From Actinomycetota bacterium (lineage in GTDB: Bacteria > Actinomycetota > Coriobacteriia > Anaerosomatales > JAUXNU01): 37,209 nt of DNA. Below, piece after piece: positions 454 through 34,512 of the stretch. The stretch is from contig JAUXNU010000056.1 of the NCBI GenBank assembly GCA_030682655.1, positions 1 through 37,209 on the forward strand. The letters are read 5' to 3'. The notes under the pieces were generated by a model that saw only the letters and a program-made list of their open reading frames with translations, was not told where the DNA came from and did no database searches. Position numbers and translations under genes: made by a program. Position 1 is the stretch's first letter, and every line of letters starts with the position of its first letter.

Positions 454-1767
454 ATGGCAATTACCAGACGACAGTTCGTTACGCGCCTCTCGGCGCTGGC
501 GGCTGCTGCGGGTCTGGGCCAGTCTGACCTTTCTCAGGTCACCCAAGCGTTTGCGCACTGGAATGCTGCCGATGCAAGCGGTCTCGTGAAGCCCAAGGTT
601 ATTTGGGTCCACGGTGCCGAGTGCACCGGCTGTTCCACGTCCGCCCTCGGACTTCTCGAGGACTACCGCGCAGAGGCTGTACCTGGCACAGGCATCTCTA
701 CGGCCGCTGCTTTGACTGCTATTGCAGTCAACGCATCAATGGCTGATCCAGACACCACCCTGACCGGTGGCGTTCTCGACGACCCGCATGGTCACCGTAC
801 GCTTGACAAGTACGGTCTTGCACTCGACGGCACCACGTCCGTCACGATCGCCGACGTGCTCATCGACTTCATCGATCTCAAGTACCATGAGACGATCATG
901 GGCATGGGCGGCGACCTTGCTGCGAAGTACCTGTGGAATGAGTACAACAATGACGGCACGGACTTCATACTCGTCGTCGAAGGCGCTGTACAGCCGAGCG
1001 ATCAGGGCGGCTACTGGGGCGAAGACGGATCCGTTCCGTGGTGCTCCATCGCTGCGACCGATACCGGCCACGAGCTTGCGTTCGACGAGGTCGTCGAGAC
1101 ACTCGCTACTCGCAGCGAATGCCTGGCTACGCTCGCTCTCGGCCAGTGTGCTACCTACGGCGGCTATCCGGGTTGCGTTGGCTCCGGCCTCGTGAAGCAG
1201 TCTGACTCCGACTCCATGAGCCAGACCGGCGCGCTCGGTGTCTACGACTTCTTGAAGGACGTCGTCGGCGGTGGATACGAAAAGGTTGTCAACGTTCCCG
1301 GTTGCCCGGTGAACCCATGGTGGTTCGTGCTGACGGTCGTTCTGTTCCTGCACGACCTGGCCACCTCGAGCGGCGGCGCCCTCATCGGCACCGACACCTC
1401 TGGTCGCCTCAGCAACGTCTACAGCCACCAGCTCCACGGTCGCTACTGCCCGTGGTATGCCGACTACGCCCTGCGCGATTTCGCGGCGTTCCCCGGCGAC
1501 GATGGCTGCATGAAGGAGATCGGCTGCAAGGGTCTCTACACGATGACGACTTGCGGCATCCACGGTTGGAACGGCATGCAGGGCACGAACGCCAAGCTCA
1601 CGCTCGCCGGCAATGCCGCTGCGGACCTGTCCTTGAACGAGGCATTCTGCGGCGAGACGCCCGCGGGCGAGAAGACCAGCGGCAACTGCCTCAAGGCCGG
1701 ATCTCCGTGCATGGGTTGCACGGAAAAAGGCTATCCTGACCGTTTCGTTCCGTTCGTTATCCGCTAG
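454..1767 (+). CDS. [NiFe] hydrogenase small subunit, Tat-exported
   Basis: The product is 437 aa and is the iron-sulfur electron-transfer subunit of a [NiFe] hydrogenase (HyaA/HynA-like), working with the large subunit encoded 21 nt downstream. The start at 454 follows AAAAGGAGG and begins a twin-arginine signal (TRRQFV, then an Ala-rich stretch), so the folded dimer should be exported. An upstream in-frame extension is rejected because it lacks a ribosome site and would bury the Tat motif. The proximal-cluster cysteines are visible at C57 and C60 (ECTGC), C232 (GQCATYGG) and C284 (PGCPVNP). The His/Cys set of the distal cluster (SHQLHGRYC, GCMKEIGC) and the CMGC near the C-terminus for the medial cluster are also present. 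This architecture is that of membrane-associated or periplasmic group 1 uptake hydrogenases. The subgroup assignment is inference. Confidence 0.95.
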   Translation: MAITRRQFVTRLSALAAAAGLGQSDLSQVTQAFAHWNAADASGLVKPKVIWVHGAECTGCSTSALGLLEDYRAEAVPGTGISTAAALTAIAVNASMADPDTTLTGGVLDDPHGHRTLDKYGLALDGTTSVTIADVLIDFIDLKYHETIMGMGGDLAAKYLWNEYNNDGTDFILVVEGAVQPSDQGGYWGEDGSVPWCSIAATDTGHELAFDEVVETLATRSECLATLALGQCATYGGYPGCVGSGLVKQSDSDSMSQTGALGVYDFLKDVVGGGYEKVVNVPGCPVNPWWFVLTVVLFLHDLATSSGGALIGTDTSGRLSNVYSHQLHGRYCPWYADYALRDFAAFPGDDGCMKEIGCKGLYTMTTCGIHGWNGMQGTNAKLTLAGNAAADLSLNEAFCGETPAGEKTSGNCLKAGSPCMGCTEKGYPDRFVPFVIR

Positions 1768-1788
1768 CGAAGAAGGGAGGGAAAATAG

Positions 1789-3930
1789 ATGGCTCAGTAT
1801 CATGAAGTAGACCCGATTTCACGCATCGAAGGTCACCTGGGAATCAAGGTCGAGCTCGACGCCAGCGGCGAAATCATTGAGGCTAACTCGCACGCCAACC
1901 TGTGGCGTGGTTTTGAGAACTTCCTCATCGGCCGTGCCGCGAACGACGCGATTACCTTCACCCAGCGCATCTGCGGTGTGTGTCCGCTGCCTCACGCTAC
2001 TGCCTCGATGTTCAACGTCGAGTCGGTTCTTGGCGTGAGTGACGGCTACATCACGTGGGAGACGGCGCATGCTACGAACCAGAGCATGAAGGGCGTTCCG
2101 GCAAAGGCCGTCCTTATTCGCAACATCGTCTACGCGTGCGAGTTCCTGATGTCGAACATCACGCACTTCTATCACCTGGTCGCTCCGAGCTACGTCCAGG
2201 GCCCGGCAATCTCGCCGTGGACCCCGTACTTTCATGACACCCAGTACCATGGGCTTCTCAGAGGTGCGAGCGGCACGGACGCAACTGGCGGTCCTGATGC
2301 ACACGGCCTCGGCGGCCTCGGTATTCTTCCCGACGCCGATGCGACTGGCTCGACCGATCTGTGGTCGGCCGTCATCACGCAGTACGTCAAGGCACTGCGC
2401 ATCCGCCGCCTCGCGCTCGAGGCCGGCGCGCTGTTCGCAGGCCGCATGCCGATGGTTGCTTCCTTCGTCGCTGGCGGCGTCACCAACAAGACCGAGACCC
2501 AGGCAAGCTGGGAGGCCAAGTGTGACGCGTTCCGCACGATCATGGTTGAGGTCGCGAACTTCTGCGTCCGTGAGTACATCCCGCTCGCTGTTGCGCTCGG
2601 CTATCTCTATACGCCGTTCGACAACAACGCTGGCGCCAACGGTTTCGGAGCCGGCTGCGGCAACCTGCTCGCATGGGGTGCGTTCCCGAACACGGGTACC
2701 GGCGATGACACGGCTCTCGCCTTCTTGGGTGGCTACAGCATCACCGACGAGTTCGCGCAGGCTGCAGAGACGCACAAGTTCATGGAACAGCGTTCGGACA
2801 CCACGGGTCTTGCCGATCATGGTGTCGAGTTCGTGAAGAACAACCTTGTCGAGTACATCGTCCGTTCGAACTACAAGGACGAGCTTGGCGAGTTCGACGC
2901 AAGCGGCAAGGCATACCCGGGTGGCGTTATCGACGCCAGCGGCAACTTCTCTGCCGTCACGCGTACGATTCCCGACCGCACTGGCTCGGTGGGCCCCTTC
3001 ACGAGCATGGCCGCAGACAACGATGACGGCTATTCCTGGATGAAGGCTCCTCGCATCAAGTCGGTTGCCGACGGCGAGTACTACCCGATGGAGGTCGGCC
3101 CGTTCGCACGTATGAACATCAACGACGCGTACTTCTCGAACAACACCGGCAACGACCAGTACCTGTTCTTGAGGGGTTCTTCTCCGTGGCTAACCGCCTA
3201 CGGTAGTCTCTACGGCAAGGCCACGAGTGACCCAACAGCTGTTGAGCACGGTGGCGGCTGGTGGGGTCTCGACCCTGACGTGATCGGTCCGGACCTGGCT
3301 CACGCCTTGGTTCTTGAGGGCGCAGTCAAGATGTCTTCCGATGGAGCCGCCATCATCGATGATGGTCTGGATATCGTGACAAAGATCCTCACCATGAAGT
3401 GTGGCTACTCCACCATGGACCGCCTGCGTGCCCGTGCAATTGAGACCTTCTGGCTCTGCACCTGGATTCTCGGTGGAACGTTCAACAAGGGAACCAGCAC
3501 GTGGGTTCCGGCTATCGGCACAGCAGTCGGCGATGGCTGGATCAACCAGCTTGAGGCTCTCTACGGTGTGACCGGCTACAAGGCCTACGCTGTTCCCCCC
3601 GGCACCACCGTTGGCATGGGTGTAAGCGAAGCTCCTCGCGGTGCCCTGGCGCACTTCGCCTCTGCTTCCTCGGGCAAGATCATCGCCTACCAGTGCGTCG
3701 TTCCCACTACATGGAACGGCTCGCCGAAGGACGGCGCGACCGGTGCTTCTGGCACCAGGCGCGGCCCGATTGAGGCTGCAGTTGTCGGCGCCACGTTCGA
3801 AGAGGGACTTGCTATCTCAGTCACCAACTTCGAGTCTGGTGACGCTGGCGGCGCAACAGCCGAGAGCGGCGTTGAAGTCCTTCGTATTGCCCAGTCATTC
3901 GATCCGTGCATCGCTTGCGCGGTCCACTAG
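1789..3930 (+). CDS. [NiFe] hydrogenase large subunit lacking a C-terminal propeptide
   Basis: The product is 713 aa, long for a family usually near 550-600 aa, and carries the Ni-Fe active site that splits H2. The L1 motif RICGVC supplies C62 and C65. The L2 motif DPCIACAVH supplies C707 and C710 and ends at H713, the final residue before the stop. Most group 1 large subunits continue beyond this His with about 15 residues that a dedicated protease removes after nickel insertion. Here there is nothing to remove, as in regulatory (HoxC-type) hydrogenases. The extra length lies in internal insertions. The protein has no signal peptide and is presumably carried out with the Tat-tagged small subunit. 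The ribosome site GAAGGGAGGG precedes the ATG. No hyp maturation genes are in the window. Confidence 0.95.
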   Translation: MAQYHEVDPISRIEGHLGIKVELDASGEIIEANSHANLWRGFENFLIGRAANDAITFTQRICGVCPLPHATASMFNVESVLGVSDGYITWETAHATNQSMKGVPAKAVLIRNIVYACEFLMSNITHFYHLVAPSYVQGPAISPWTPYFHDTQYHGLLRGASGTDATGGPDAHGLGGLGILPDADATGSTDLWSAVITQYVKALRIRRLALEAGALFAGRMPMVASFVAGGVTNKTETQASWEAKCDAFRTIMVEVANFCVREYIPLAVALGYLYTPFDNNAGANGFGAGCGNLLAWGAFPNTGTGDDTALAFLGGYSITDEFAQAAETHKFMEQRSDTTGLADHGVEFVKNNLVEYIVRSNYKDELGEFDASGKAYPGGVIDASGNFSAVTRTIPDRTGSVGPFTSMAADNDDGYSWMKAPRIKSVADGEYYPMEVGPFARMNINDAYFSNNTGNDQYLFLRGSSPWLTAYGSLYGKATSDPTAVEHGGGWWGLDPDVIGPDLAHALVLEGAVKMSSDGAAIIDDGLDIVTKILTMKCGYSTMDRLRARAIETFWLCTWILGGTFNKGTSTWVPAIGTAVGDGWINQLEALYGVTGYKAYAVPPGTTVGMGVSEAPRGALAHFASASSGKIIAYQCVVPTTWNGSPKDGATGASGTRRGPIEAAVVGATFEEGLAISVTNFESGDAGGATAESGVEVLRIAQSFDPCIACAVH

Positions 3931-3952
3931 CCGAGAAAGGGAGGTGAATGCT

Positions 3953-5233
3953 GTGAGAAAATTAACTACTCTGTTTATTGCGGTCATCGCTATCATGCTC
4001 CTGTCGAGCGGAGTCGCCTACGCGAACTTCGGTCCTCATGGTGCCTATGTCGATGACACCGATGCTTGTGCTGCTTGCCATAGGGCTCACACGTCCTTCG
4101 CTGATCTCGGCTGGGTCGATCTGCAGGGCTACGAGCGCGATAGCGCGTTGCTCGTGTCGGATGCAGACACGATGACCGAGTTCTGCTATGCGTGTCACGG
4201 TGACGACGCCATTGGCGCGTCGACCAACGTTGAGTCCGGCGTCTTCGACACCGGCCCCACGACTGCGCTGAACGCGGTTCCAAGTCTTGGCGACTCTCCG
4301 CCTACGTCATACAGGTCGTTCTCTTCGTATGACACTACGCTGAACGGCGGTGGCTTCGAGGCTTTGGGCGCGAACCCTGCTGACGTTGCCTCGACCCACG
4401 GTATGGAGCAGGACGACGCTCCGATCTGGGCCTCGACGGTCACGGAGATTGTGAGCTTCCGCTGTACGAGCTGCCACGATCCGCACGGTAGCTCCAACTA
4501 CCGCATTCTCAAGGACAGCCTGCCGAATGGTGTCGTTGGCGGCTACGACGTCAACGATGTGCCCGACCCGTTCGTTATCTCGAACGAGTATGGCTATCCG
4601 CAGGGTGGCTGGCAGAAGGCTGAGGCCGGTGTCGTGCAGATGGCTGACTACCGTCCGAGCTACACGTCGTACCTCTGGGCAACCAACGGCAAGAACATGT
4701 CCGCATGGTGCGCCGGTTGTCACACTGGCTACGATGTTGCTGTCAGTAACGCCGACTACGCCGGGTATGAGCAGCTCACGCTTGCTGATCTCACCAATCC
4801 CACGAATGCCGACGTTGGCGAAAAGGAACGCCATCGCCACCTGGTTGACGTTCCGTTCAACCTGGGCGTTGGTCCCATGCGCGGGCTCAACGTGACGCTG
4901 GTCATGGATCCGGGTCTGCCTCTCGAGGCCGGTGCCGACAGCACTGCAGCAAATGGTGGCTATGCTTTTGCGTACTATCAGGACGCAAACACCTGGATGA
5001 ACGGTGCCAACAACGTGACGTGTCTCACCTGCCACTATGCTCACGGTTCTACCGCGACCATGAGTGGTTGGTCCGTCGCGCAGATGACGCAGGATCCGAC
5101 TGGCTCGGGCGCCATTGCCCCGGTCAAGGTCCCGTCGACTGCTACTACTCAGGGTGTCGATCCTAACCACTCTGAGGCCCTTCTCCGTTACAACGAGCGC
5201 GGCGTGTGCGAGCGTTGTCACAACAAGGGCTAG
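3953..5233 (+). CDS. secreted hexaheme c-type cytochrome of the hydrogenase operon
   Basis: The product is 426 aa, starting at GTG 3953 after AAAGGGAGGTG. It has a Sec signal peptide (hydrophobic core LFIAVIAIMLL, likely cleavage after AYA) and six CxxCH heme c motifs: CAACH, CYACH, CTSCH, CAGCH, CLTCH and CERCH, the last only three residues from the C-terminus. No other membrane segment is seen, so it is an extracytoplasmic soluble or peripheral protein. It lies 22 nt after the hydrogenase large subunit and before a terminator, so it is probably the electron acceptor of that enzyme in place of the usual cytochrome b subunit. This role is inferred from context. A longer reading frame starting inside the large-subunit gene lacks a ribosome site and would bury the signal peptide. 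Confidence 0.92.
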   Translation: MRKLTTLFIAVIAIMLLSSGVAYANFGPHGAYVDDTDACAACHRAHTSFADLGWVDLQGYERDSALLVSDADTMTEFCYACHGDDAIGASTNVESGVFDTGPTTALNAVPSLGDSPPTSYRSFSSYDTTLNGGGFEALGANPADVASTHGMEQDDAPIWASTVTEIVSFRCTSCHDPHGSSNYRILKDSLPNGVVGGYDVNDVPDPFVISNEYGYPQGGWQKAEAGVVQMADYRPSYTSYLWATNGKNMSAWCAGCHTGYDVAVSNADYAGYEQLTLADLTNPTNADVGEKERHRHLVDVPFNLGVGPMRGLNVTLVMDPGLPLEAGADSTAANGGYAFAYYQDANTWMNGANNVTCLTCHYAHGSTATMSGWSVAQMTQDPTGSGAIAPVKVPSTATTQGVDPNHSEALLRYNERGVCERCHNKG

Positions 5234-22824: not shown

Positions 22825-24948
22825 ATGAAGCGAACGACCTTCCGGCCCGGCGGTCGTACCCGCGCCGCGTTCTCCTCGGCGATGGCCGCTTTGACGCTGG
22901 CCGTGGTCTGCGCGTCGGTGGCTACCGCTTTCGCGGTGCTCGCACCCGATGCGTACGAGCCCGACGACACCTACACGGCTGCGGCCACGATCGCCGTCGC
23001 GACCCCCCAGGTGCACACGCTGTTTCCTGCGGCCGACTACGACTGGGTCACGTTCGTGCCAACGGTAGACCAGCCGTACGACATCCGCACGTCCTCGGCA
23101 GGGGGCGTCGATGTCGACACGCTGATCACGCTCTACGTCGACGACGGCGCTGGCGGGATCACGTACGTGACCGAGAACGACGACTTCCTCGGGCCCTACT
23201 CCCGAATAGCCTGGACGCCGAGCACCGACGCGACGGCATACGTCGAGATCACGCATGTGGACACGCCGGGTGGCGGCGGAGACCCCGGCGACTATGAGGT
23301 CGCCGTGTACGACCTCGTGCCGGGTATCGCGGGCACGGTCACCGAGCAGGGGAGCGGCAACCCGCTCTCCGGCATCGACGTGACCGCCTATCACTACGAG
23401 GCGGGCATCTGGTTCGAGGACGCGTACGCACAGAGCGGCGCTTCCGGAGCCTATGGGCTCACGGACCTGGGAACGGGAAGCTACGCGGTCGGTTTCGTTG
23501 ATCCGTCCGGCGTCGATGGGTATCACGTGCCCGAGTTCTACGACGACGTTTCCGGCATCGACGATGCGACGCTCGTGGCGACCACTGAGTTTTCGACGGT
23601 TTCGGGTGTCGACGCGGCCCTGACACGCCTTGGCTATCTCGCGGGCACCGTGCGGGCGGAGGCCACCGGGCTTCCGCTTGCGGGCATGCGCGTGACCGCG
23701 TACGCGAAGCCGGGATCGAGCTGGATCTCGGTGGCAACGACGTCGACCGGCACCGATGGCACCTATCGCGTTGAGTCGCTCACGACCGGAACCTACCGGC
23801 TCAGGTTCAGCGACCCTGCGGCCGTCCCGGGCTCGCGGACATTCTACGTGTCCCAGTACTACGACGAGGTGTTGGATCTGGCCGGCGCCCATGACATCGA
23901 GTTGACGGCCTCGGGCTTCGTTGAGGGACTGGATGCGGATCTGGGCCGCGCCAGAGTGGCCCGGCTTTCGGGTCCCGATCGCTACACGACCGCCGTCCGA
24001 ATCGCGCGGTACGCGTTCGATCCCGATGGCGACAAGAGCTGGCCCGGGGTGGAGCACGTCATCATCGCTTCGGGAGAGGACCGCGCGGCCGCCGACCCGC
24101 TTGCCGCTTCCGGGCTGTGCTGGGCCTACGATGCTCCACTCTTCCTCGTGAGCAGGTCGAGCACCTCGGCGCAGGTCAAGGACGCCATCGTCGAGATCGT
24201 GAAGGCCCGCGGCTCCGTCGAGATCCACGTGGTTGGCGGTACGGCGTCCGTTCCCGACGCGCGCATCGCCAACATCAAGGCGGCGGCCGGTCCGTACGGG
24301 CTGGTGACGGCCGAGAGGCTACTGTCGGGTGGGAACCGCTACGACCTCGCCCGCGCCATAGCCGTCAGGATGAAGCAGGTTGCGGCGCTCACCGGGCGCA
24401 GCCTGCCCGGCACCGTGCTCATCGCCAACGGGGCCGACCCGGCGAAGTTCTTCGACGCGCTCGCGCTCTCTCCGATCGCGACTGACATGGGTGCTCCGAT
24501 ACTGCTCGTGGCCAAGGACAGCGTGCCTGCCGCCACCACAGCGGCCCTGAAGACGCTGGCGCCGACGCGTGTCATCGTCGGCGGTGGACCTGCGACCGTG
24601 TCTGCTGCCGTCAAGACCGCAGTCGGCGCGACCGGCCCGGACGACCGCTGGTACGGCGCGACGCGGTACTCGACCGCCTCCACAATCGCCTCCAAGGCGA
24701 TCAGCGCCGGGTGGCTGTCGCCGGGAGTTGTCGGACTCGCTGCCAAGCTTCCCGACGGCATGACTGGCGGCGCTATGGCCGGTCACCTCGGCGGCGTGCT
24801 GCTTCTGACGCCGAAGTCCCCGCTTGCGGCAGAGTCGGCGGCCGTGCTCACCTCACACCGGCTCGGGGTCGAGCAGTGTCTGCTCCTTGGCGGTCCGGCG
24901 TCCATCGCCGAGACGGTAGTAGAGTCGGCCGCGGCGAGGTTGCGCTAG
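22825..24948 (+). CDS. surface protein: PPC-like domain, two carboxypeptidase-regulatory-like modules, CWB2 anchor
   Basis: The product is 707 aa from ATG 22825, preceded by GGGGA; ATG 22813 is an alternative. A signal peptide ends near ATAFA. A PPC-like domain (about 36-165) opens with DAYEPDDTYTAA and contains DYDWVTF. It is followed by two beta-sandwich modules of the carboxypeptidase-regulatory or Cna-B type (about 168-260 and 270-365; GIAGTVTEQGSGNPLSGIDV and LAGTVRAEATGLPLAGMRV), and a CWB2 domain (about 377-707). No catalytic domain is visible, so it is probably a structural or adhesive wall protein. It lies 47 nt after the large protease gene and may share its transcript. Confidence 0.88.
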   Translation: MKRTTFRPGGRTRAAFSSAMAALTLAVVCASVATAFAVLAPDAYEPDDTYTAAATIAVATPQVHTLFPAADYDWVTFVPTVDQPYDIRTSSAGGVDVDTLITLYVDDGAGGITYVTENDDFLGPYSRIAWTPSTDATAYVEITHVDTPGGGGDPGDYEVAVYDLVPGIAGTVTEQGSGNPLSGIDVTAYHYEAGIWFEDAYAQSGASGAYGLTDLGTGSYAVGFVDPSGVDGYHVPEFYDDVSGIDDATLVATTEFSTVSGVDAALTRLGYLAGTVRAEATGLPLAGMRVTAYAKPGSSWISVATTSTGTDGTYRVESLTTGTYRLRFSDPAAVPGSRTFYVSQYYDEVLDLAGAHDIELTASGFVEGLDADLGRARVARLSGPDRYTTAVRIARYAFDPDGDKSWPGVEHVIIASGEDRAAADPLAASGLCWAYDAPLFLVSRSSTSAQVKDAIVEIVKARGSVEIHVVGGTASVPDARIANIKAAAGPYGLVTAERLLSGGNRYDLARAIAVRMKQVAALTGRSLPGTVLIANGADPAKFFDALALSPIATDMGAPILLVAKDSVPAATTAALKTLAPTRVIVGGGPATVSAAVKTAVGATGPDDRWYGATRYSTASTIASKAISAGWLSPGVVGLAAKLPDGMTGGAMAGHLGGVLLLTPKSPLAAESAAVLTSHRLGVEQCLLLGGPASIAETVVESAAARLR

Positions 24949-24969
24949 CCGACGCAGCCGGCCCAGGAG

Positions 24970-24987
24970 CCTCTCGTCTTCGGGAGG
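24970..24987 (+). terminator. hairpin terminator candidate after the CWB2 array
   Basis: CCTCTCG (24970-24976) pairs with CGGGAGG (24981-24987) around a TCTT loop, with one G-U pair. There is no T-tract, so it is only a candidate. Confidence 0.4.
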
Positions 24988-24998
24988 GGGGTGACTAG

Positions 24999-25163
24999 AT
25001 GACTAGGTGGAGCCAAAATGGTTGGCCGGGCGCGCACACCCAAGCCGCTGATACCCTCGAGCTCGAGGCCAACCTGCGTGAGGTCATCGGGATGCTGCTC
25101 GAAGACGGTGAGCCGCAGCTCGAGTCGGAATTCTTGGACGTTCGCAGCATCCAAGTCGCCTGA
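24999..25163 (+). pseudogene. truncated HicB-type antitoxin remnant
   Basis: A 54-codon frame from ATG 24999 encodes the C-terminal two thirds of a HicB antitoxin: PGAHTQAADTLELEANLREV, then LLEDGEPQLESEF and a normal ending IQVA. The usual N-terminal strands are missing, with only about nine residues before the PGxHTQ motif. It is followed within 2 nt by the HicA remnant, the expected antitoxin-toxin order for this subtype. Confidence 0.7.
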
Positions 25164-25165
25164 CA

Positions 25166-25284
25166 GTGGGCACGGTTCCGGTCCTCAAGGCTCGAGAGGT
25201 CGTTGCCCTCCTCATCTCTCTCGGCTTCGCAAGATCGTGGCTGATGTCCGCATGACGCTCGACGAGTTCCTTGCTGTGCGATGA
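25166..25284 (+). pseudogene. internally deleted HicA-type toxin
   Basis: From GTG 25166 the frame reads as a HicA N-terminus (VPVLKAREVVALLISLGF). From 25225, in another frame, the HicA C-terminus appears (LRKIVADVRMTLDEFLAVR, stop at 25282-25284). The centre, which carries the catalytic His-containing GSHxxF region, is absent. The bases CTTC at the junction serve both halves, suggesting microhomology-mediated deletion. Confidence 0.78.
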
Positions 25285-25311
25285 GAACGTCCGCACGCCC
25301 CGCGGAGCGCA

Positions 25312-25341
25312 TTGACGGGCGCCACCGCACACGGCTACGCT
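25312..25341 (+). promoter_or_regulatory. promoter for the tungstate and pterin-cofactor operon
   Basis: TTGACG (25312-25317) and TACGCT (25336-25341) are separated by 18 nt. The predicted transcription start near 25348 is immediately before the first hairpin of the structured leader. A second TTGACA at 25375 lacks a good -10. Confidence 0.45.
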
Positions 25342-25347
25342 GACCAT

Positions 25348-25560
25348 CTAGGGAGCGGTCATCGACCGTCCCGATTGACATCGGTCTCTTCGTTGCGCAC
25401 GACGACGGGACCTCGCGGCCGGACATACGTCCTGGCCGTCCATACCTCCGAGTCCGGAGGGCCTACCACGCTCGCGGCCTGTCGCGCGGCGTCACGGTCA
25501 CCGGACCGATAGGGCCGGCGGGGAAACCTTCCGACCTCCCGTGTTTGGAAAGGAGACCGA
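25348..25560 (+). promoter_or_regulatory. structured 5' leader of tupA, riboswitch candidate
   Basis: In about 210 nt without a gene I see at least four hairpins: 25351-25372 (GGGA-g-CGGTC / GACCGTCCC), 25415-25439 (GGCCGGAC / GTCC-t-GGCC), 25445-25460 (CCTCCG / CGGAGG) and 25495-25508 (CGGTC / GACCG). CCTTCC at 25527-25532 can pair with GGAAAGG at 25547-25553, which is the tupA ribosome binding site. The 3' part contains GGGGAAACC and CCGACCTCCC, which recall elements of the Moco/Tuco riboswitch class known upstream of molybdenum and tungsten genes. That match is from memory and needs a covariance search. Confidence 0.45.
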
Positions 25561-26442
25561 GTGAACGTGCGTATAGGTGCGCCTCGAATGAGGCGCGCGG
25601 TGGGGTGTGTGGTCGCCGCAGCACTCGCGCTCTCGCTGGTCGGGTGCGCATCATCTACCGGGGACGGAACGTCCTCGGACAAGGCCGCCGACACGCCCGG
25701 CGAGATCATCCTGGCGTCGACGACCTCCACGCAGGACTCCGGGCTCTTCGACGTCCTCATCCCGGCCTTCGAGAAGGCGAATCCGGCCTACAAGGTCAAG
25801 GTCGTCGCCGTGGGTACCGGGGAGGCGCTCAAGCTCGGCGAGACAAAGGACGCCGATGTCTTGCTCGTCCACTCCAAAGCTGACGAGGAGAGGCTCGTCG
25901 AGGCCGGCTTCGGTGTCGAGCGCCGCGACGTCATGTACAACGACTTCGTGCTGGTGGGACTGGAAGCGGATCCGTCCGGCGTGAAGGCCGCCGCAGATCT
26001 ACCCGGCGCCATGACTGCCATTGCAGCGGGAAAGGCGCCGTTCATCTCCCGCGGCGACGACTCCGGCACGAACAAGAAGGAGCTCAAGCTCTGGAAGGCC
26101 GCGAGTATCGCCACGCCCACTCCTGACGCGCAGAGCTGGTACGAGTCGACCGGCCAGGGCATGGGCGAGACGCTCACCATCACAACGAACAAGGGTGGCT
26201 ACACGCTTGCCGACCGTGCGACGTACCTGTCGATGGAGGACACGCTCGACCTGGTTATCGTGCGTGAGGGCGACAAGGACCTGCTCAACCAGTACGGAGT
26301 CATCGTTGTCACCGATGCGGCCAACCAGGAAGGTGGCCAGGCGTTCTTCGACTGGATCCTGTCCGAGGAGGGCCAGACGGTCATCGGCGACTACGGGACC
26401 GAGGAGTTCGGCCAGCCGCTGTTCATTCCGAACGCACAGTAG
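25561..26442 (+). CDS. tupA: tungstate ABC transporter, substrate-binding lipoprotein
   Basis: The product is 293 aa, starting at GTG 25561 after GGAAAGGAG. It is a lipoprotein with lipobox LVGC and lipidated C29. The mature part opens with STTSTQDSGLFDVLIPAFEK, the family's oxyanion-binding TTSTxxSG motif, followed by GTGEALKLGETKDADVLLVH and MYNDFVLVG, all typical of TupA rather than ModA. It captures tungstate (or related oxyanions) outside the membrane and hands it to TupBC. It is the first gene of the cofactor operon, under a structured leader. Confidence 0.93.
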   Translation: MNVRIGAPRMRRAVGCVVAAALALSLVGCASSTGDGTSSDKAADTPGEIILASTTSTQDSGLFDVLIPAFEKANPAYKVKVVAVGTGEALKLGETKDADVLLVHSKADEERLVEAGFGVERRDVMYNDFVLVGLEADPSGVKAAADLPGAMTAIAAGKAPFISRGDDSGTNKKELKLWKAASIATPTPDAQSWYESTGQGMGETLTITTNKGGYTLADRATYLSMEDTLDLVIVREGDKDLLNQYGVIVVTDAANQEGGQAFFDWILSEEGQTVIGDYGTEEFGQPLFIPNAQ

Positions 26443-26488: not shown

Positions 26489-27202
26489 GTGCAGATCTAC
26501 ATCGATGCGATCGTCGAGGGCTGGCGCCTGCTGGTCACGGGCGCGCTCGATGTCTGGAGCATCGTGATCGTGTCGTTTCGCGTTTCCGGCGCGGCCACGC
26601 TCATCGCGCTCGTGCTGGGGGTGCCGGCAGGGTTCCTCCTTGGCACGTACAGGTCGGTGAGCAGGCGCGTGGCGCTCGTTCTCGCGAACACGGGCATGGG
26701 CCTGCCTCCGGTCGCCGTGGGGCTCGTGGTGGCGATGACGCTGTCGCGCCATGGGCCGCTCGGGGAGCTACGTCTGCTGTATTCACAGCCCGCGATGATC
26801 ATCGCCCAGGTCATCATCGCTCTGCCGATCGTCGCCGCCGTGACGGCGGCAGCGGTATCGTCGGTCCCCCGGGAGCTGCGTCTGCAGGCGCGCTCCCTGG
26901 GAGCTTCTCCGCTACGCGAGATGGCGCTCACACTGGCCGAGGCACGCATGGGGTTGCTCGCCGCCGTCGCCGCGGGATTCGGCTCGATCATCTCCGAGGT
27001 GGGCGCGGTGATGATGGTCGGCGGCAACCTCGCCGGCGAGACCCGCGTCATGACCACCGCGATCGTGCAGTACACGCGTATGGGGCGCTACGGGGCAGCG
27101 TTCGCGCTCGTGGTGATCCTCGTGTCGATCGTGTTGGCGGTCAACGTGCTCATCACCGGAATCCAGACTTCCGCCGAGCGCTACGAGGGAGGGACGCGAT
27201 GA
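26489..27202 (+). CDS. tupB: tungstate ABC transporter, permease
   Basis: The product is 237 aa from GTG 26489, with AAGGAGG 11 nt upstream. Five to six hydrophobic segments are visible (for example VSGAATLIALVLGVPAGFLL, IIAQVIIALPIVAAVTAAAV). The cytoplasmic coupling loop with the EAA-type motif RSLGASPLREMALTLAEA contacts the ATPase. The C-terminal region GSIISEVGAVMMVGGNLAGE is characteristic of TupB. It forms the membrane channel of the importer. It overlaps tupC by 4 nt, so translation is coupled. Confidence 0.93.
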   Translation: MQIYIDAIVEGWRLLVTGALDVWSIVIVSFRVSGAATLIALVLGVPAGFLLGTYRSVSRRVALVLANTGMGLPPVAVGLVVAMTLSRHGPLGELRLLYSQPAMIIAQVIIALPIVAAVTAAAVSSVPRELRLQARSLGASPLREMALTLAEARMGLLAAVAAGFGSIISEVGAVMMVGGNLAGETRVMTTAIVQYTRMGRYGAAFALVVILVSIVLAVNVLITGIQTSAERYEGGTR

Positions 27203-28305
27203 ACGTCGGTCTCTCCCTGGGAGCGCTCGGTCTGCGCCGCGACTACCGTGGCGGCTTCTCGCTTGCGGTCGACGAGCTGCATGTCCCCGCGGGCAGCACG
27301 CTTGCGCTGCTGGGGCCGTCTGGCTCCGGGAAGTCCACGCTGCTGTCGCTCCTTGGTCTGCTCGAGAAGCCGGACGCGGGCAGTGTGCAACTCGACGGGC
27401 GAGAAGTCACCACGCGCGACCATGAAGCCCGGCTCTCGATGGCGGCCGTCTTCCAGCGCCCGTACCTCATCAAAGGCACGGTGGCGGCCAACGTCGCCTA
27501 CGGCCTCGCCTTGCGCCGTGTACCTGCCGAGGAGCGTGCCCGCCGCGTCGATGCAGCTCTCGAGCGCGTGGGGCTGGACGGCCTCGGCGATCGTGCGGCG
27601 GCGGCACTGTCGGGCGGCGAGGCGCAGCGGGTCGCACTCGCGCGCGCGCTCGTGCTCGAGCCGCAGGTGCTGCTGCTCGATGAGCCGCTAGCCTCACTCG
27701 ATCCGCTGCTGAAACGCCAGCTCACCGGCGAGTTCGCGTCGATTCTGCGTAGCAGCGGCTCCACTGTCGTCTGGGTCACGCACGACCAGGATGAGACGCT
27801 GGTCGTGTCGGACTCGATTGCGGTCATGCGCGACGGGAGAATCGTGGCCCACGGGCCGACCGAGGCCGTGATGGCGCTGCCGAAAGACGAGTGGACGGCC
27901 AAGTTCCTTGGCCAGGAAGTTCCGATTCGCGGGCGCGTGGCGTCGGGGGGCGAAGGGCTCGCCGAGATCGTGTGCGGGTCCGCGACGATCCTCGCGGTGT
28001 CCGACGCCGAACCCGGGACCGAGGTGCTTGTCGCGGTGGCGCCGGAGGACGTGGTGCTGTTGGCGGGCGATGCGGAGATGCCGCCCTCCTCGGCAAGGAA
28101 CAGGCTGCGCGGGTTCGTCGACGAGGTGTCGCCGCGCGGCAGCACGTGGCGCGTAGTCGTCCAGATTGACGGGGTGCGCATCGCCTCGGTCGTGTCGCGG
28201 GCGGCGCTGGCGGAGATGGGACTTGCCCCGGGCGCTGCGGTGCAGGTGCTGTTCAAGGCAACGGCGGTCCGCGTTCGGCGGGTCGAGACGGAGCGCGTCG
28301 AGTAG
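27199..28305 (+). CDS. tupC: tungstate ABC transporter, ATP-binding protein with C-terminal TOBE domain
   Basis: The product is 368 aa. Walker A is GPSGSGKST (39-47), the signature is LSGGEAQRVALARAL, Walker B is VLLLDEPLASLD, and the switch His is in VTHDQDE. A C-terminal part of about 130 residues resembles a TOBE domain (SSARNRLRGFVDEVSPRG), which in ModC-type proteins binds the oxyanion and can inhibit transport. It powers TupAB. The start ATG overlaps the tupB stop. Naming as TupC rests on the neighbours. Confidence 0.92.
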   Translation: MNVGLSLGALGLRRDYRGGFSLAVDELHVPAGSTLALLGPSGSGKSTLLSLLGLLEKPDAGSVQLDGREVTTRDHEARLSMAAVFQRPYLIKGTVAANVAYGLALRRVPAEERARRVDAALERVGLDGLGDRAAAALSGGEAQRVALARALVLEPQVLLLDEPLASLDPLLKRQLTGEFASILRSSGSTVVWVTHDQDETLVVSDSIAVMRDGRIVAHGPTEAVMALPKDEWTAKFLGQEVPIRGRVASGGEGLAEIVCGSATILAVSDAEPGTEVLVAVAPEDVVLLAGDAEMPPSSARNRLRGFVDEVSPRGSTWRVVVQIDGVRIASVVSRAALAEMGLAPGAAVQVLFKATAVRVRRVETERVE

Positions 28306-28342
28306 AATACGCATCACTGTCGTACGTATAGGGTGGTCGCTG

Positions 28343-29779
28343 ATGGGACGAAACGATAGCGTGCAGATGCTCCCGCTCACCGCGGCGGTGCTCGCCGGCG
28401 GGCGCTCCTTGCGCATGGGCGTCGACAAGACGCTCTTGACCGTCGACGGCGAGCCGCTTGTCGGGCACGTGATCGATGTCGTTGGCGAGGTGTGCGAGCA
28501 GGTCATCGTGGTGACGAACCGGCCCGAGGCTCTCGATGATGTCGCCCTGCCACCCGACGTTGCCGTCGTGACCGACGAGATTGCGTACCAGGGCCCCCTC
28601 GGCGGTCTTGCGACCGCGCTGGCGGCGGCCGGGCACGAGTGGGTGCTTGCGGTTGCCGCCGACATGCCGTGGCTGCAGTCCGGCGTGGTGCGCGCGCTGT
28701 GGGCGGCGCGCGAAGGCGTCGACGCCGTCGTTCCCGTAACCGAATCCGGGCTCGAGCCGCTGCTCGCTCTCTATCGCGTCGAGCCGTGTCTGCCGGCGGT
28801 GCGCGCAGCTCTTGCGAGCGGTCGCAGGCGAGTTGTGGGCTTCTTCCCGCAGGTCAACGTGCGCGAGATCCCGACCGAGACGCTGCGCGCGGCCGACCCC
28901 GGTCTCCTGAGCCTCGTCAACGTGAACACGCCCGGCGACCTCGCCGAAGTGCGCGCAGCCGCCTCGGATATCGCTGCTGCCGAGGATCGCGCTCCCGGCC
29001 GCTCGCGCGACGTGCGGTTGCAGATCGTCGAGGTCGGCACGCGCCGGTCGCGTGGGATGCCGTCCGAGCGCCCCATCACGCTGCATATGAACGACGTCGA
29101 GATCGCCACCATTCAGGCCAGCCCGGAGGACCTTGAGGAGATGGCGGCCGGCTTCCTCCTCGCCGAGGGGCTCATATCCGATCGCGACGCACTTACGGGC
29201 ATCGACACCGATGTGAAGCGCGGGATGGTCTACGTGAGCACGACCGAGGAAGTGCCGGACGATATGGTCCACAAGACCCGCTACGTCACCAGCGGCTGTG
29301 GCAAGGGCGTGACCTTCTCGACGATCGGCCACGCCCGAGATCTCGCCCACATCGAGTCGGACGTGCTGGTCGACAGCGAGGCGCTCTACGCGATGATGGG
29401 GCAGATGGCCCGCGCGGCCGAGCGCTATCGCGACTCCGGAGGCACGCACGCGTGTGCGCTCGGGCGCGACGGCGAGGTCGTGCTCGTGCGCGAGGACGTC
29501 GGTCGTCACAACGCGCTCGACAAGCTCCTTGGCAAGGCATGGCTCGATCGCATTCCGACAGACGACGCCGTACTGCTTACCACCGGCCGCATCTCCTACG
29601 AGATGGCCGTCAAGGCCGCCAAGTCCCGGGTTCCCATCGTCGTGTCGCGCACCGCCGTCACCGACCTGGCCGCCGATATCGCCGCGGAGCTGGGGATCAC
29701 CGTCGTCGGCTACGCGCGCGGCGGCAAGCTTGTCGTCTACACACACCCGTTTCGGGTGCGCATTGCCGAGGAGGACTAG
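28343..29779 (+). CDS. mobA-fdhD: fused MobA (cofactor nucleotidyltransferase) and FdhD (sulfurtransferase)
   Basis: The product is 478 aa from ATG 28343, with GGGTGG upstream. Residues about 10-205 are MobA: LAGGRSLRMGVDKTLL nucleotide-binding motif, AADMPW metal site and NTPGDL near 195. This part joins GMP to the metal-pterin to make the dinucleotide form. Residues about 225-478 are FdhD: TSGCGKG with C319 (a single Cys where E. coli has CxxC), GGTHACAL with C371, and EDVGRHNALDKLLG. FdhD moves sulfur from a cysteine desulfurase onto the bis-guanine dinucleotide cofactor for formate dehydrogenase. No stop or frameshift lies between the halves. A cysteine desulfurase at the operon end could be the sulfur donor. 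Confidence 0.93.
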   Translation: MGRNDSVQMLPLTAAVLAGGRSLRMGVDKTLLTVDGEPLVGHVIDVVGEVCEQVIVVTNRPEALDDVALPPDVAVVTDEIAYQGPLGGLATALAAAGHEWVLAVAADMPWLQSGVVRALWAAREGVDAVVPVTESGLEPLLALYRVEPCLPAVRAALASGRRRVVGFFPQVNVREIPTETLRAADPGLLSLVNVNTPGDLAEVRAAASDIAAAEDRAPGRSRDVRLQIVEVGTRRSRGMPSERPITLHMNDVEIATIQASPEDLEEMAAGFLLAEGLISDRDALTGIDTDVKRGMVYVSTTEEVPDDMVHKTRYVTSGCGKGVTFSTIGHARDLAHIESDVLVDSEALYAMMGQMARAAERYRDSGGTHACALGRDGEVVLVREDVGRHNALDKLLGKAWLDRIPTDDAVLLTTGRISYEMAVKAAKSRVPIVVSRTAVTDLAADIAAELGITVVGYARGGKLVVYTHPFRVRIAEED

Positions 29780-29784
29780 TGGGC

Positions 29785-31047
29785 GTGCCAAAGACCATGA
29801 CCGTGGAGGAGGCCCGCGAGCTCGTGCTTTCCGGCGTGCCGCGGCTCGAAGCCGAGCAGGTCTCGCTCATCGACGCTCTCGGCCGGGTGCTAGCGACCGA
29901 CGCTGTGAGCGACATCGACGTCGCGCCGTTCGACAACTCCGCGATGGACGGGTTCGCGGTACGTGCAGCCGACACGGCTGGCGCGACCGCGGATGCTCCG
30001 GCCGAGCTCGACGTCGTCTCGCTGATTGCGGCAGGCGACTTCTCCGACCGCGAGATCGGTCCCGGTGAGGCCGCGCGCATCATGACCGGCGCGCCGGTAC
30101 CGCCCGGGGCCGACGCGATCGTGATGGTAGAGTACTCGCGTGCGCTGACCGGCGACGGCGGCGTGGGGTCCCGGGTCGTTCTCGAGCGCGCGGCGGCCTG
30201 CGGCGATCACATCAGGCGTCGCGGCGAGGAAGTACTCGCCGGGGACATCGTGATGGCAGCGGGCGAAGTCATCGGCGCTGCGGGAGTCGGCCTGCTCGCC
30301 TCGACCGGACACGCTACCGTCGCGGTCTATCGCCGTCCACGCGTGGCGATACTCTCGACCGGCAGCGAACTCGTCGAGGTCGCCGAGACACCCGGGCCGG
30401 GCAAGATCCGCAACTCGAACTCGTACTCGATCGCCGCGCAGGTCATTGCTGCCGGCGGCATCCCCGTGCGTTACGAGATCGTCCCCGATGACCTCGAAGC
30501 CACGCGTGCAGCGTTCGCCCGCGCCGCCGAGGAGACCGACTACATCACGACCAGCGGCGGCGTCTCCGTCGGCGACTTCGACTACGTGAAGCCGGTTCTC
30601 GAGGAGATGGGCGAGCTGGCGTTCTGCAAAGTCGCGATGCGCCCGGGCAACCCGCAGACGATGGGATCGATTAGCGGCGTGCCCTTCTTCGGCCTGCCCG
30701 GCAACCCCACCAGCACCTATGTCGGCTTCGAGGTCTTCGTGCGTCCGGCGCTCCGGCTCATGCAGGGATTCTCGGCGCTCGACCGCCCGGTCACGGTTGC
30801 CGCGCTCGCGCACGATGTCCGCAAGAAGCCCGACCGCCGCTACTACTATCGCGCTCGCATCGAGCCCGCCGCCGCCGGTGCCGCACTACCCACAGTGGCG
30901 CTCACCGGCAGCCAGTCCTCGGCACTGCTGACCGCCGCGCATCGCGGCAACTGCCTCATGGTCCTGCCGGAGGGCGAGTCGCATTTCGCCGCTGGCACGC
31001 AGGTCGCATGTATGAGACTCGACATGGAAGAAGGGACGCCGCTATGA
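29785..31047 (+). CDS. moeA: molybdopterin molybdotransferase (metal insertion)
   Basis: The product is 420 aa. GTG 29785 is chosen as 10 nt after GAGGAGG; GTG 29779, overlapping the previous stop by 1 nt, and ATG 29797 are alternatives. MoeA inserts molybdate or tungstate into adenylylated pterin. Family motifs are DNSAMDGFAVRAADT, RIMTGAPVPPGADAIV, TGSELVEV with IRNSNSY, TSGGVSVGDFDYVK and GLPGNPTST. The C-terminal domain IV is present, so the protein is complete. It overlaps the next small gene by 4 nt. Confidence 0.93.
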   Translation: MPKTMTVEEARELVLSGVPRLEAEQVSLIDALGRVLATDAVSDIDVAPFDNSAMDGFAVRAADTAGATADAPAELDVVSLIAAGDFSDREIGPGEAARIMTGAPVPPGADAIVMVEYSRALTGDGGVGSRVVLERAAACGDHIRRRGEEVLAGDIVMAAGEVIGAAGVGLLASTGHATVAVYRRPRVAILSTGSELVEVAETPGPGKIRNSNSYSIAAQVIAAGGIPVRYEIVPDDLEATRAAFARAAEETDYITTSGGVSVGDFDYVKPVLEEMGELAFCKVAMRPGNPQTMGSISGVPFFGLPGNPTSTYVGFEVFVRPALRLMQGFSALDRPVTVAALAHDVRKKPDRRYYYRARIEPAAAGAALPTVALTGSQSSALLTAAHRGNCLMVLPEGESHFAAGTQVACMRLDMEEGTPL

Positions 31048-31304: not shown

Positions 31305-31844
31305 GTGACAGATCGTCACATACCCGCACACACGGGCGACCTCCGCATCCCGGTCGTGTCCGTCGTCGGCAAGTCCGACTCGGGCAAGACCACCTTCCTC
31401 GAGAAGCTCATCGCCGAGCTGACCTGCCGAGGATGGCGCGTGGGGACCGTGAAGCACCACGTGCACGACTTCGACATCGACGTGCCGGGCAAGGACTCGT
31501 GGCGTCACGCGCACGCGGGTGCTGCCGTGACCATGATCAGCGCTCCCGACAAGTTCGGGCTCATCCGGCGGGTCGAACGCGAGCTCACCCTTCCCGAACT
31601 CGTCGAGCAGGTCGGCGACGTGGATATCCTGCTCACCGAGGGCTTCAAGCGGGCGGGCAACGTGCGCATCGAGGTCTGCCGCGCCGCGCGCTCCCGGGAG
31701 CTCATCTGCGCCGCCGAGGAGCTGTACGCCGTTGTGACCGACCAGCCGGATCTCGTGCCGGAAGGCGTTGCGGCCTACGGGCTCGAGGACGCATCCGCGA
31801 TCGCCGACGCGATCGAAGCCGATTTCCTTGGCGGTGGTCGGTGA
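31305..31844 (+). CDS. mobB: molybdopterin-guanine dinucleotide biosynthesis GTPase
   Basis: The product is 179 aa from GTG 31305 (weak AGGA upstream). The P-loop is VVGKSDSGKTTFLEKL, followed by RVGTVKHHVHDFDIDVPGKD, the typical MobB KHxxHxF-DxxGKD signature, and LLTEGFKR. MobB is a GTP-binding helper of MobA. The stop overlaps the moaA ATG by 1 nt. Ends with a short Gly-rich tail. Confidence 0.92.
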   Translation: MTDRHIPAHTGDLRIPVVSVVGKSDSGKTTFLEKLIAELTCRGWRVGTVKHHVHDFDIDVPGKDSWRHAHAGAAVTMISAPDKFGLIRRVERELTLPELVEQVGDVDILLTEGFKRAGNVRIEVCRAARSRELICAAEELYAVVTDQPDLVPEGVAAYGLEDASAIADAIEADFLGGGR

Positions 31845-32875
31845 TGGCCACCGACGCGCACGGGCGTCGCATAGACTACCTGCGGATCTCGCTTACCGAC
31901 CGGTGTAACCTGCGTTGCGTGTACTGCATGCCCGAGGAGGGTGTGGCCTGGAAGTCTCCGGAATCGATCCTGACGCTGGAGGAGATCGAGCGGTTCGCGG
32001 GAATCGCGGTGGGCGAAGGCATCGGCAAGATCCGACTCACCGGAGGCGAGCCGCTGATCCGGCGCGGCGTGGTCGACCACATCCGGCGGCTGAGGGCGAT
32101 CACCGGTCTCGAGGCGATTGCGCTGACCACCAACGGCACGCTTCTGCCGCGGTTTGTCGCCGATCTGCATGCCGCCGGGCTTTCCCGCGTGAACATCTCG
32201 CTCGACTCGCTCGACCCCGAGGTCTTCGCGACCATCACCCGTGGCGGGCACCTCGCCGACGTGCTTGCCGGCATCGACGCGGCGCTGGCAGCGGGCTTCG
32301 ATCCGGTGAAGATCAACGTCGTCGTTGTGCGCTCGCTGGGCCAAGACCTGCTCGACTTCGCGCGACTCGCCCAGGACCGCCCGCTGCACGTGCGCTTCAT
32401 CGAGTACATGCCGGTCGGCGACGATGCCGAGGAGGGTGCGGGCTGCGCGGGCGACGGCGGAGATTTCCACTGGACGCGGGCCGACCACATCCCCAGTGAC
32501 GACGTCCTCGGTGAGCTGCGCGTGCGGGGCGCGCGAGCCGGGTTCGGCGAGCTCGTGCCGGTGGCCCGCGACGCCGCTCCCGGCGGGTGGGGGCCGGCGC
32601 GCTACTTCCGGTTCGAAGGGGCTCGCGGTACGCTCGGGGTGATTTCCCCGCTGTCGCACCACTTCTGCGGGGAGTGCAACCGCCTGAGGCTGACCGCCGA
32701 CGGCATGTTGCGCACCTGCCTGTTCTCGGACGAGGAGATCGACGTGCGCTCCGTGCTTCGCGGCGGCAGCGACGACGATGTGAGAGACGTCGTTCGCGCG
32801 GCGCTTGCGGCCAAGCCCGCGAGTCACAGCGAGCGCATAGGGACACTGCGGCGCATGTCGCAGATCGGAGGCTGA
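31844..32875 (+). CDS. moaA: GTP 3',8-cyclase (radical SAM)
   Basis: The product is 343 aa. MoaA and MoaC make cyclic pyranopterin from GTP, the first step of the cofactor pathway. The radical SAM cluster is C21, C25 and C28 (CNLRCVYC); the substrate-side cluster is C275, C278 and C292 (FCGECNRLR then RTC). The GTP-binding segment [12 protein letters not shown] is present, and the chain ends in the conserved GG needed for activity. ATG 31844 is preferred; GTG 31841 is possible. An insert with Cys and Gly residues (about 195-215, [13 protein letters not shown]) is longer than in most relatives. Confidence 0.94.
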
Positions 32876-32877
32876 CG

Positions 32878-33417
32878 ATGGCTGGCACGATCCCGGATGG
32901 CGCCACCCGCGAACCTGGCGAGGGCGCTCCTCGGCTTAGCCATGTTGACGAGTCGGGAGCCGCGCGCATGGTCGATGTGGGTGCCAAGGACGTGACGCGC
33001 CGTGAGGCGGTCGCGGCGGCCTTCGTCGAGATGCGCCCTGAGACGCTCGAGATGATTGTCGCCGGCGACGCCCCGAAGGGCGACGTGCTTGCAGCCGCGC
33101 GTATTGCGGGCATCATGGCCGCCAAGCGCACGAGCGAGCTCATTCCGCTGTGCCACCCGCTCCCCATCACGCACGCGTCCGTGACGCTCGAGCCACAGCG
33201 TGGAGAGCGCACGGGGGTCGCGATCATCGCGACCGTTGCCGTGGAGGGCCGTACCGGGGTCGAGATGGAAGCGCTCACGGCCGCGGCGGTCGCCGGACTC
33301 ACCATCTACGACATGTGCAAAGCGGTCGATCGCGGCATGGTCGTGACCGGCGTCGGGCTGCTGCGCAAAGAGGGCGGCGCGAGCGGGCTTTGGACCCGCG
33401 AGGAGGGTGCGCTGTGA
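32878..33417 (+). CDS. moaC: cyclic pyranopterin monophosphate synthase
   Basis: The product is 179 aa from ATG 32878, 2 nt after moaA, with CGGAGG upstream. It completes the MoaA reaction. Family motifs are [61 protein letters not shown] and [11 protein letters not shown]. The N-terminus is about 18 residues longer than usual. The stop overlaps the next gene by 4 nt. Confidence 0.95.
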
Positions 33418-34025
33418 GCGAAGACGCGCTCAGTCCCCGCGACGCACCCGCAGGAGTCACGCTGCCCGGTCCGGGCGAGGTCGTCTCGGTGAACATCTCC
33501 GAGCGCAAGACCGTGCGCAAGCCCCCGGGCACGGCAGGTACGCTTGTGTTCGACCGTGGCTTCAAGGACGACGCCCACGCAGGTGACTGGCACCGTCAGG
33601 TATCACTGCTGGCAATCGAGTCCATCGGCACCATGGTCGCCAAGGGGCTCGACGTCGGGCCGGGGGACTTCGCCGAGAACATCACGACTCGCGGCATCGA
33701 CCTGCTTGCACTGCCGATCGGCAGCGTATTCGCCATCGGTGACGACGCGGTTCTCGAGGTCAGCCAGATCGGCAAGGTGTGCCACACGAAGTGCGCGATC
33801 TACTACCAGGCCGGCGACTGCGTCATGCCCCGGGAAGGGATCTTCGGGGTCGTGCGCGAGCCCGGTGCGGTCCGTGTCGGCGACCGCATCAAAGTCGTCT
33901 CCCTCGGCGACGGCACGTGCGACCGGACGCCAGAAGAAGCCGTCCGCGAGTTTCAGGAAGAGTCCGCCAAGGAGGCCGCGCTGCGCGAGCGCGCGGCCCA
34001 GGTCGGTTTCGAGACAGAGGAGTGA
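33414..34025 (+). CDS. MOSC-domain protein
   Basis: The product is 203 aa from GTG 33414. It has a MOSC domain fold: [14 protein letters not shown], a [15 protein letters not shown] segment, [14 protein letters not shown], and [24 protein letters not shown] with several Cys. MOSC proteins are sulfur or cofactor carriers in molybdenum metabolism. A charged helical tail of about 40 residues ([20 protein letters not shown]) follows and is not part of the domain. It sits between moaC and the mog-type gene, as in many anaerobe operons. Confidence 0.88.
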
Positions 34026-34029
34026 CGAC

Positions 34030-34512
34030 GTGGCGCAGCTGCGCGTAGGGATATTGACGTGCTCGGACAGCCGCAGCAGTGGCGAGGCCGAGGACACGGC
34101 CGGCGCCGCGCTCTCGGAAGCGGTGAGTGAGCTCGGCTGGGACCCGTTCGCGTGTGCGATCGTGGCCGACGACGCGGGTGTCATCGCGGCCGCCATCGGC
34201 CGGATGGCCGAGGACGGCGCCGACATCGTGCTCACCTGCGGGGGCACCGGCTTCGGCCCGCGCGATGTCACGCCCGAGGCCACGCTCTCGGTCTGCGACC
34301 GGGCCGCACCCGGCATCGCCGAGGCCATCCGGGCGCAGTCGATGGCCGTCACCCGACGCGCGATGCTTTCGCGTGGCGTGGCCTGTCTGCGTGGGAAGAC
34401 GCTCGTGGTGAATCTGCCCGGCAGCAGACGGGCCGCACTCGAGTCATTCGGGTTCGTGGCCGACCAGCTCGAGCACGCGGTCGACATGATGGCCGGAGGC
34501 GGCCACGGGTGA
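34030..34512 (+). CDS. mog: molybdopterin adenylyltransferase (MogA/MoaB type)
   Basis: The product is 160 aa from GTG 34030 after GAGGAG. It adenylylates the pterin before MoeA adds metal. Motifs are GILTCSDSRSSGEAEDTAG, LTCGGTGFGPRDVTPEAT, the nucleotide-binding GGTGxxxRDxTPEA, and VVNLPGSRRAALESF. Mog and MoaB cannot be told apart securely here. Stop overlaps the next gene by 4 nt. Confidence 0.9.
   Translation: MAQLRVGILTCSDSRSSGEAEDTAGAALSEAVSELGWDPFACAIVADDAGVIAAAIGRMAEDGADIVLTCGGTGFGPRDVTPEATLSVCDRAAPGIAEAIRAQSMAVTRRAMLSRGVACLRGKTLVVNLPGSRRAALESFGFVADQLEHAVDMMAGGGHG

Follow-up and report, generated by a model that had tools for sequence, protein, structure and literature searches.

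The window analysed here is a stretch of 37,209 bases in which the genes of a tungstate importer and of pterin-cofactor synthesis lie downstream of a leader on the forward strand. These genes are the following:

25561 to 26442, forward strand: tupA, tungstate-binding protein with a GTG start (best family NF041772 TupA, 223.6 bits, below the curated 400)
26489 to 27202, forward strand: tupB, permease (NF038017, 212 bits; NF041773 TupB, 158 bits, below the cut-off)
27199 to 28305, forward strand: tupC-type ATPase (best NCBIfam family WtpC, 247 bits, below the cut-off)
28166 to 29779, forward strand: open reading frame with a MobA-like domain (amino acids 73-224) and an FdhD domain (amino acids 300-531) in one frame
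29800 to 31047, forward strand: moeA (molybdotransferase family), start approximate
31305 to 31844, forward strand: mobB (PF03205, 150 bits)
31850 to 32875, forward strand: moaA, start approximate (TIGR02666, 351 bits, above the cut-off)
32930 to 33417, forward strand: moaC, start approximate (TIGR00581, 206 bits, above the cut-off)
33480 to 34025, forward strand: MOSC-domain gene (PF03473), start approximate
34048 to 34512, forward strand: mogA/moaB-type gene (MoCF_biosynth, PF00994), start approximate

Every TupA score obtained falls under the curated NCBIfam cut-off, and TupA, TupB and TupC all stay below the strict NCBIfam cut-offs, though Tup and Wtp families rank among their best matches. 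The best relatives of tupA are TupA genes of HGW-Actinobacteria (64-65%), and a search of plasmid records with tupA gave distant homologues only. In the case of the MobA-like/FdhD reading frame, the true start is probably near 28370; the nucleotidyltransferase and sulfurtransferase domains share one uninterrupted frame (28166-29779), apparently as a fusion protein. The original prediction had placed the leader upstream of a tungstate importer and a complete pterin-cofactor operon. The tupABC and cofactor genes are indeed there, but ‘complete’ was overstated, as neither moaD nor moaE was seen among the window reading frames scanned. Elsewhere in the window (247-5233), genes for the small and the large subunit of a NiFe hydrogenase are followed by a multiheme cytochrome gene, and the source DNA also encodes multiheme cytochromes and cell-wall-binding repeat proteins. 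These proteins, along with the TupA relatives, suggest a source in the OPB41/Anaerosomatales lineage.

The leader had been said to recall the Moco/Tuco class of RNAs, and a cmscan comparison of the window with all Rfam families bears this out. RF01055 (Moco RNA) was the sole family above threshold, with a match at 25434-25569 on the forward strand (50.4 bits, E=2.6e-9, the curated gathering score being 36 bits). The alignment spans the model from end to end (positions 1-135), with the P3 hairpin omitted. Additionally, a covariance model was built from 48 relatives with the window element excluded. This held-out element scored 91.9 bits (E=1.5e-26), while the next-best match of the relatives-only model in the window reached 13.8 bits; that second match, at 24867-24948 on the reverse strand, is regarded as chance. 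Every core position and helix of RF01055 is kept in the window element. Its helices P1, P2, P4 and P5 are conserved, with covariation in related leaders, and it precedes Moco/Tuco synthesis and tungstate transport genes, as membership of the family leads one to expect. On these comparative grounds we consider it practically certain that the element belongs to RF01055, and by the same sequence comparison window positions 25434-25569 are a P3-less, Tuco-type riboswitch of the Moco family in the leader of the tupABC/Moco-Tuco operon. As a member of its family the element is unremarkable.

The element is made up as follows (helices are placed by the RF01055 alignment and, from P2 to P5, by the relatives' model):

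25434 to 25569, forward strand: P3-less Moco/Tuco (RF01055) aptamer enclosing the tupA ribosome site (cmscan and relatives-only model)
25446 to 25449, forward strand: P1 5' strand CUCC, pairing with GGAG of the Shine-Dalgarno
25452 to 25457, forward strand: P2 5' strand GUCCGG, pairing with CCGGAC at 25501-25506
25462 to 25497, forward strand: distal P2 with a receptor-like internal loop
25507 to 25511, forward strand: CGAUA, a 5-nt linker between P2 and P4 in place of P3 (P3 positions are deleted in the Rfam alignment)
25512 to 25536, forward strand: P4 with a GAAA tetraloop at 25523-25526 (strands 25512-25522 and 25527-25536)
25537 to 25549, forward strand: P5, UCC 25537-25539 with GGA 25547-25549 (relatives' alignment)
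25547 to 25555, forward strand: GGAAAGGAG, the tupA Shine-Dalgarno region, with GGAG 25552-25555 inside (from the sequence)
25552 to 25555, forward strand: P1 3' strand GGAG, pairing with CUCC 25446-25449

The resemblance had been read from two strings, GGGGAAACC and CCGACCTCCC. Both are present as quoted 5' of the TupA gene, like GGAAAGG at 25547-25553, and they correspond to the tetraloop arm of P4 (25520-25528) and to the P4/P5 junction (25531-25540) of the Moco RNA. The extent given for the structured leader, 25348-25560, has to be revised: a structured element does lie here, but it starts at 25434, and 25348-25433 is outside the aptamer. Two stable hairpins (25351-25372 and 25382-25412) were observed in this 5' segment, outside RF01055; its folding energy has a z value of -1.75, which 8 of 200 shuffles equalled or bettered. 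In the distal P2, CC 25462-25463 pairs with GG 25496-25497 and 25468-25471 with 25489-25492. Compared to the RF01055 model, 14 nt are inserted here in one block, giving a lineage-specific enlarged loop, and the receptor-like loop CCUA..CGG is a variant form. A GNRA tetraloop on P4 and the receptor-like P2 loop are thus both present, with putative docking between them.

Within the class, RF01055 was matched in 68 of 199 genomes, 63 of which are from the order of the window itself. The 132 class matches above the gathering score were examined for P3 by script and by eye: P3 was absent in 126 and present in 6. Between P2 and P4, the P3-less members carry a short linker, mostly of the CGAU/CGAC type. 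Covariation was then assessed in an alignment of 48 P3-less sequences from which the window element was left out. In these relatives 94.0% of the cells pair, versus 80.3% after shuffling and at most 50.2% when the partners were slid; the slid control keeps the relatedness among the relatives, and the shuffles do not. Double-change cells numbered 190 versus 68.6, both sides change in 16 of the 28 pairs, and none of 500 shuffles reached the alignment on any of five pairing measures. The outcome named beforehand as contrary to a sensor of this class, neither a covariance-model match nor covariation in related leaders, is therefore not what was seen. Double-sided changes occur in all five modelled P2 pairs and in seven P4 pairs; P1 itself barely varies, with 98.4% of its cells paired. 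Applied to other loci, the relatives-only model gave 76-89 bits for P3-less copies and 21-54 bits for P3-bearing ones. A second RF01055 copy in the same genome scored 80.2 bits with this model and 61.7 bits with that of Rfam.

The evidence for the aptamer is comparative, and folding energy alone gives nothing. The aptamer segment has a z value of +0.58, its stability being matched or exceeded by 142 of 200 shuffles, and thermodynamic folding was for this reason not used as evidence. In unconstrained folding of the window sequence, the predicted energy minimum differs from the aptamer fold and the P1 probability is about zero. This would be compatible with a P1 that needs ligand or tertiary contacts, and proves nothing.

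Regarding the expression platform, the GTG start of tupA at 25561 lies 5 nt after the GGAG of the P1 3' strand. Across the class, the start codon follows the P1-strand AAAGG by 7-10 nt in 58 of 60 tup leaders and in 0 of 42 formate dehydrogenase leaders. Therefore, a ligand-stabilised P1 probably hides the ribosome site of tup leaders, and by its start spacing the window element belongs to this ribosome-site type. A terminator-type platform, also considered for the window element, was ruled out, the start codon being 5 nt after the P1 strand. In the case of the formate dehydrogenase leaders, about 30 of the 42 show a T-run some 100-125 nt 3' of the aptamer with a foldable segment before it, as found by a simple rule and not a calibrated predictor; this pattern suggests a transcription terminator. 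The formate dehydrogenase leader copy of the window's own genome fails this simple T-run rule. Altogether, we consider masking of the tupA ribosome site by P1 very likely. A promoter had also been proposed 5' of the leader, but the scan of 24900-25700 gave no sigma-70-like promoter, and TTGACA at 25375-25380 comes without a good second hexamer.

The choice between molybdenum and tungsten had been left open in the original prediction, whose Moco/Tuco interpretation is otherwise supported. That P3-less RNAs sense Tuco was proposed from gene context by Regulski 2008 (PMC2408646). The genome of the window holds the tungsten genes that go with the Tuco subtype, namely one TupA gene (that of the window) and two AFOR_N/AOR-family genes, and ModA gave no match in it at E<=0.001. 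Its second RF01055 copy, also P3-less (L208:4489-4607, on G000:C54), precedes a Sec-formate dehydrogenase (L208:4857-8291) whose motif FGTSNVEHQARI-U-HSSTVAGL contains an in-frame TGA; this enzyme has a Tat signal, and ferredoxin and multiheme cytochrome genes follow. In the class, P3-less copies are associated with tup genes in 61 cases (window included), Sec-formate dehydrogenase in 42, AOR in 5 and modA in 1; another 17 are without assignment and include the distant targets, because contexts were assigned by tblastn with a limited query set (the window's own proteins, own-genome proteins and one ModA).

In the order, G022 is the only genome with P3-bearing copies. It has four of them, ModA is present, and TupA and AOR were not detected. 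On its contig C2 (L220, L221), one P3-bearing copy lies before modA and another before an FmdE/FecCD-type ABC operon; the neighbours include DUF364 proteins in this operon as well as DUF3825 and DUF5648 proteins. A TupA match was absent in all six listed genomes of the order without an RF01055 copy, several of which are incomplete. As a whole, P3 loss, the tupABC context, ModA not being detected and the presence of genes for AOR and Sec-formate dehydrogenase speak for the tungsten form of the cofactor. That the ligand carries tungsten rather than molybdenum, a selectivity that we infer, appears fairly likely.

The distribution of P3 also has exceptions. In six loci of other Actinomycetota (L269, L270, L277, L279, L281 and L283), P3-bearing copies precede tupA, and a strict rule by which P3-bearing copies mean molybdenum genes is therefore rejected at the phylum level. 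Single P3-bearing copies with terminator-like hairpins stand before tupA in L269, L277, L279 and L283, contrary to the published rule, under which P3-bearing copies go with molybdenum genes only. Two loci show tandems before tupA, with the P3-bearing RNA first and the P3-less one second: L270 (G374:C5, 1501-1650 and 1793-1912) and L276 (G293:C13, 1286-1431 and 1501-1619). In both, a strong hairpin and a T-run follow the P3-bearing RNA, and the ribosome site of the P3-less copy is in P1. Should P3 determine the metal, these tandems would be two-cofactor gates, with termination by one cofactor and ribosome-site masking by the other. In the order of the window, a P3-less copy on G019:C36 (L222:4028-4148) precedes a modA-type gene, at a distance of some 280 nt from the ModA match. 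Further P3-less copies were seen between divergent genes with AOR on the other strand (G047:C13:118030-118536, L123; G095:C54; G016:C1). They precede a gene for a GEGP-motif diheme protein in G095 and an ornithine racemase-like gene in G016, and on G047:C13 (L123) two P3-less copies are in tandem.

Some of these exceptions would fit the same riboswitch, with the same masking, if it bound the molybdenum cofactor, or the cofactor with whichever metal, and P3 absence were a matter of lineage. The P3-bearing copies before tupA in other Actinomycetota and the P3-less copy before modA in G019 point in this direction. The same holds for an experiment on the E. coli RNA, where deletion of P3 abolished regulation and did not switch specificity (PMC2408646). 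Against this stand the window's own genome, with TupA and two AOR genes and ModA not detected, and G022, the order's sole genome with P3-bearing copies, where the gene set is the opposite; we regard a molybdenum or metal-indifferent ligand as unlikely. Another explanation is that a protein, e.g. a cofactor-loaded regulator, recognises the RNA as a cis element and that the RNA is not itself a direct sensor. Direct binding was not demonstrated by Regulski 2008 because the cofactor is unstable (PMC2408646), and this would leave room for a protein. The core is large, multi-stem and highly conserved across phyla, however, and on the same grounds Regulski 2008 argues against the involvement of a protein (PMC2408646), which makes this explanation improbable.

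The two remaining alternatives concern the RNA itself. The ribosome site had been predicted to be hidden by pairing of CCTTCC with GGAAAGG. Both strings are present and could pair with one bulge, but CCTTCC (25527-25532) forms the 3' half of P4 and was seen in just 8 of the 102 related leaders, which means that pairing with GGAAAGG lacks conservation; the hairpin would also destroy both P4 and a P1 that is almost always paired. Thus, hiding of the ribosome site stands as likely and the specific pairing was wrong: the conserved partner is CUCC 25446-25449 in P1, and we find the CCTTCC pairing highly improbable. Finally, the window element could be a decayed or non-functional copy, given its lower Rfam score (50.4 versus 61.7 bits for the other copy in the genome) and its enlarged P2 loop. 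With the relatives' model the order of the two is reversed (91.9 versus 80.2 bits), and core positions and helices are all kept; decay is hence scarcely credible.

The preferred reading is a Tuco-type riboswitch whose ligand-stabilised P1 hides the tupA ribosome site, and as a whole we hold this model to be likely. When plentiful, the finished cofactor, most likely in its tungsten form, would bind at the junction of P1, P2, P4 and P5, which the P4 GAAA tetraloop may hold together by docking into P2. The bound cofactor would stabilise the pairing of CUCC 25446-25449 with the tupA Shine-Dalgarno, GGAG 25552-25555. With P1 stable, translation of tupA would stop, and probably that of coupled downstream genes too. 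When the cofactor is scarce, P1 would open, and the tungstate importer and the cofactor enzymes would be made. Because the ribosome site lies inside the core fold, cofactor binding should shut off tungsten import and cofactor making, with the bound cofactor as the predicted repressor of tupA translation.

More tentatively, and with somewhat less than even confidence, we propose a tungsten-cofactor regulon of the Anaerosomatales (OPB41-like Coriobacteriia) on P3-less RNAs, in which the P3-less fold selects tungsten, with tandem two-cofactor gates elsewhere. If true, tungstate import and cofactor synthesis would be controlled at translation, and Sec-formate dehydrogenase by terminator-type control in most relatives. 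In the first strains of the order brought into culture, the formate dehydrogenases were reported to be molybdenum enzymes (PMC9686372); our observations suggest that formate dehydrogenases of this order may use tungsten. The 18-year-old question of whether P3 loss means tungsten cofactor sensing becomes easier to test: a single order contains P3-less copies with tup, AOR and Sec-formate dehydrogenase genes and a P3-bearing genome with modA. Moreover, the tandem P3-bearing and P3-less tupA leaders would offer a natural system for testing metal discrimination by RNA. Among tungsten-using anaerobes, Tup and a Tuco pathway are found in the genetically tractable laboratory strain of Eubacterium limosum (PMC13328260).

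Compared to the Moco RNA described by Regulski 2008 (RF01055, PMC2408646), the window element shares the full-length match, P1, the receptor-like P2 loop, the GAAA tetraloop of P4 and P5, together with the core CUCCGAG...AGGG...GGAAAC...CCUCCCGU...UUGGAAAGGAG; it differs in being without P3 and in its enlarged distal P2 loop. With the Tuco subtype it has in common the missing P3, the tungstate-transport and pterin-cofactor genes on its 3' side and the tungsten-enzyme families in the organism, whereas a whole tup-mob-fdhD-moe-moa operon and its place in the Coriobacteriia are different here. In the case of the E. coli moaA Moco RNA, for which a ribosome site in P1 was proposed by Regulski 2008 (PMC2408646), the position of this site and the predicted repression by cofactor are the same, but unlike the window element the E. 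coli RNA has P3, and it does not respond to tungstate.
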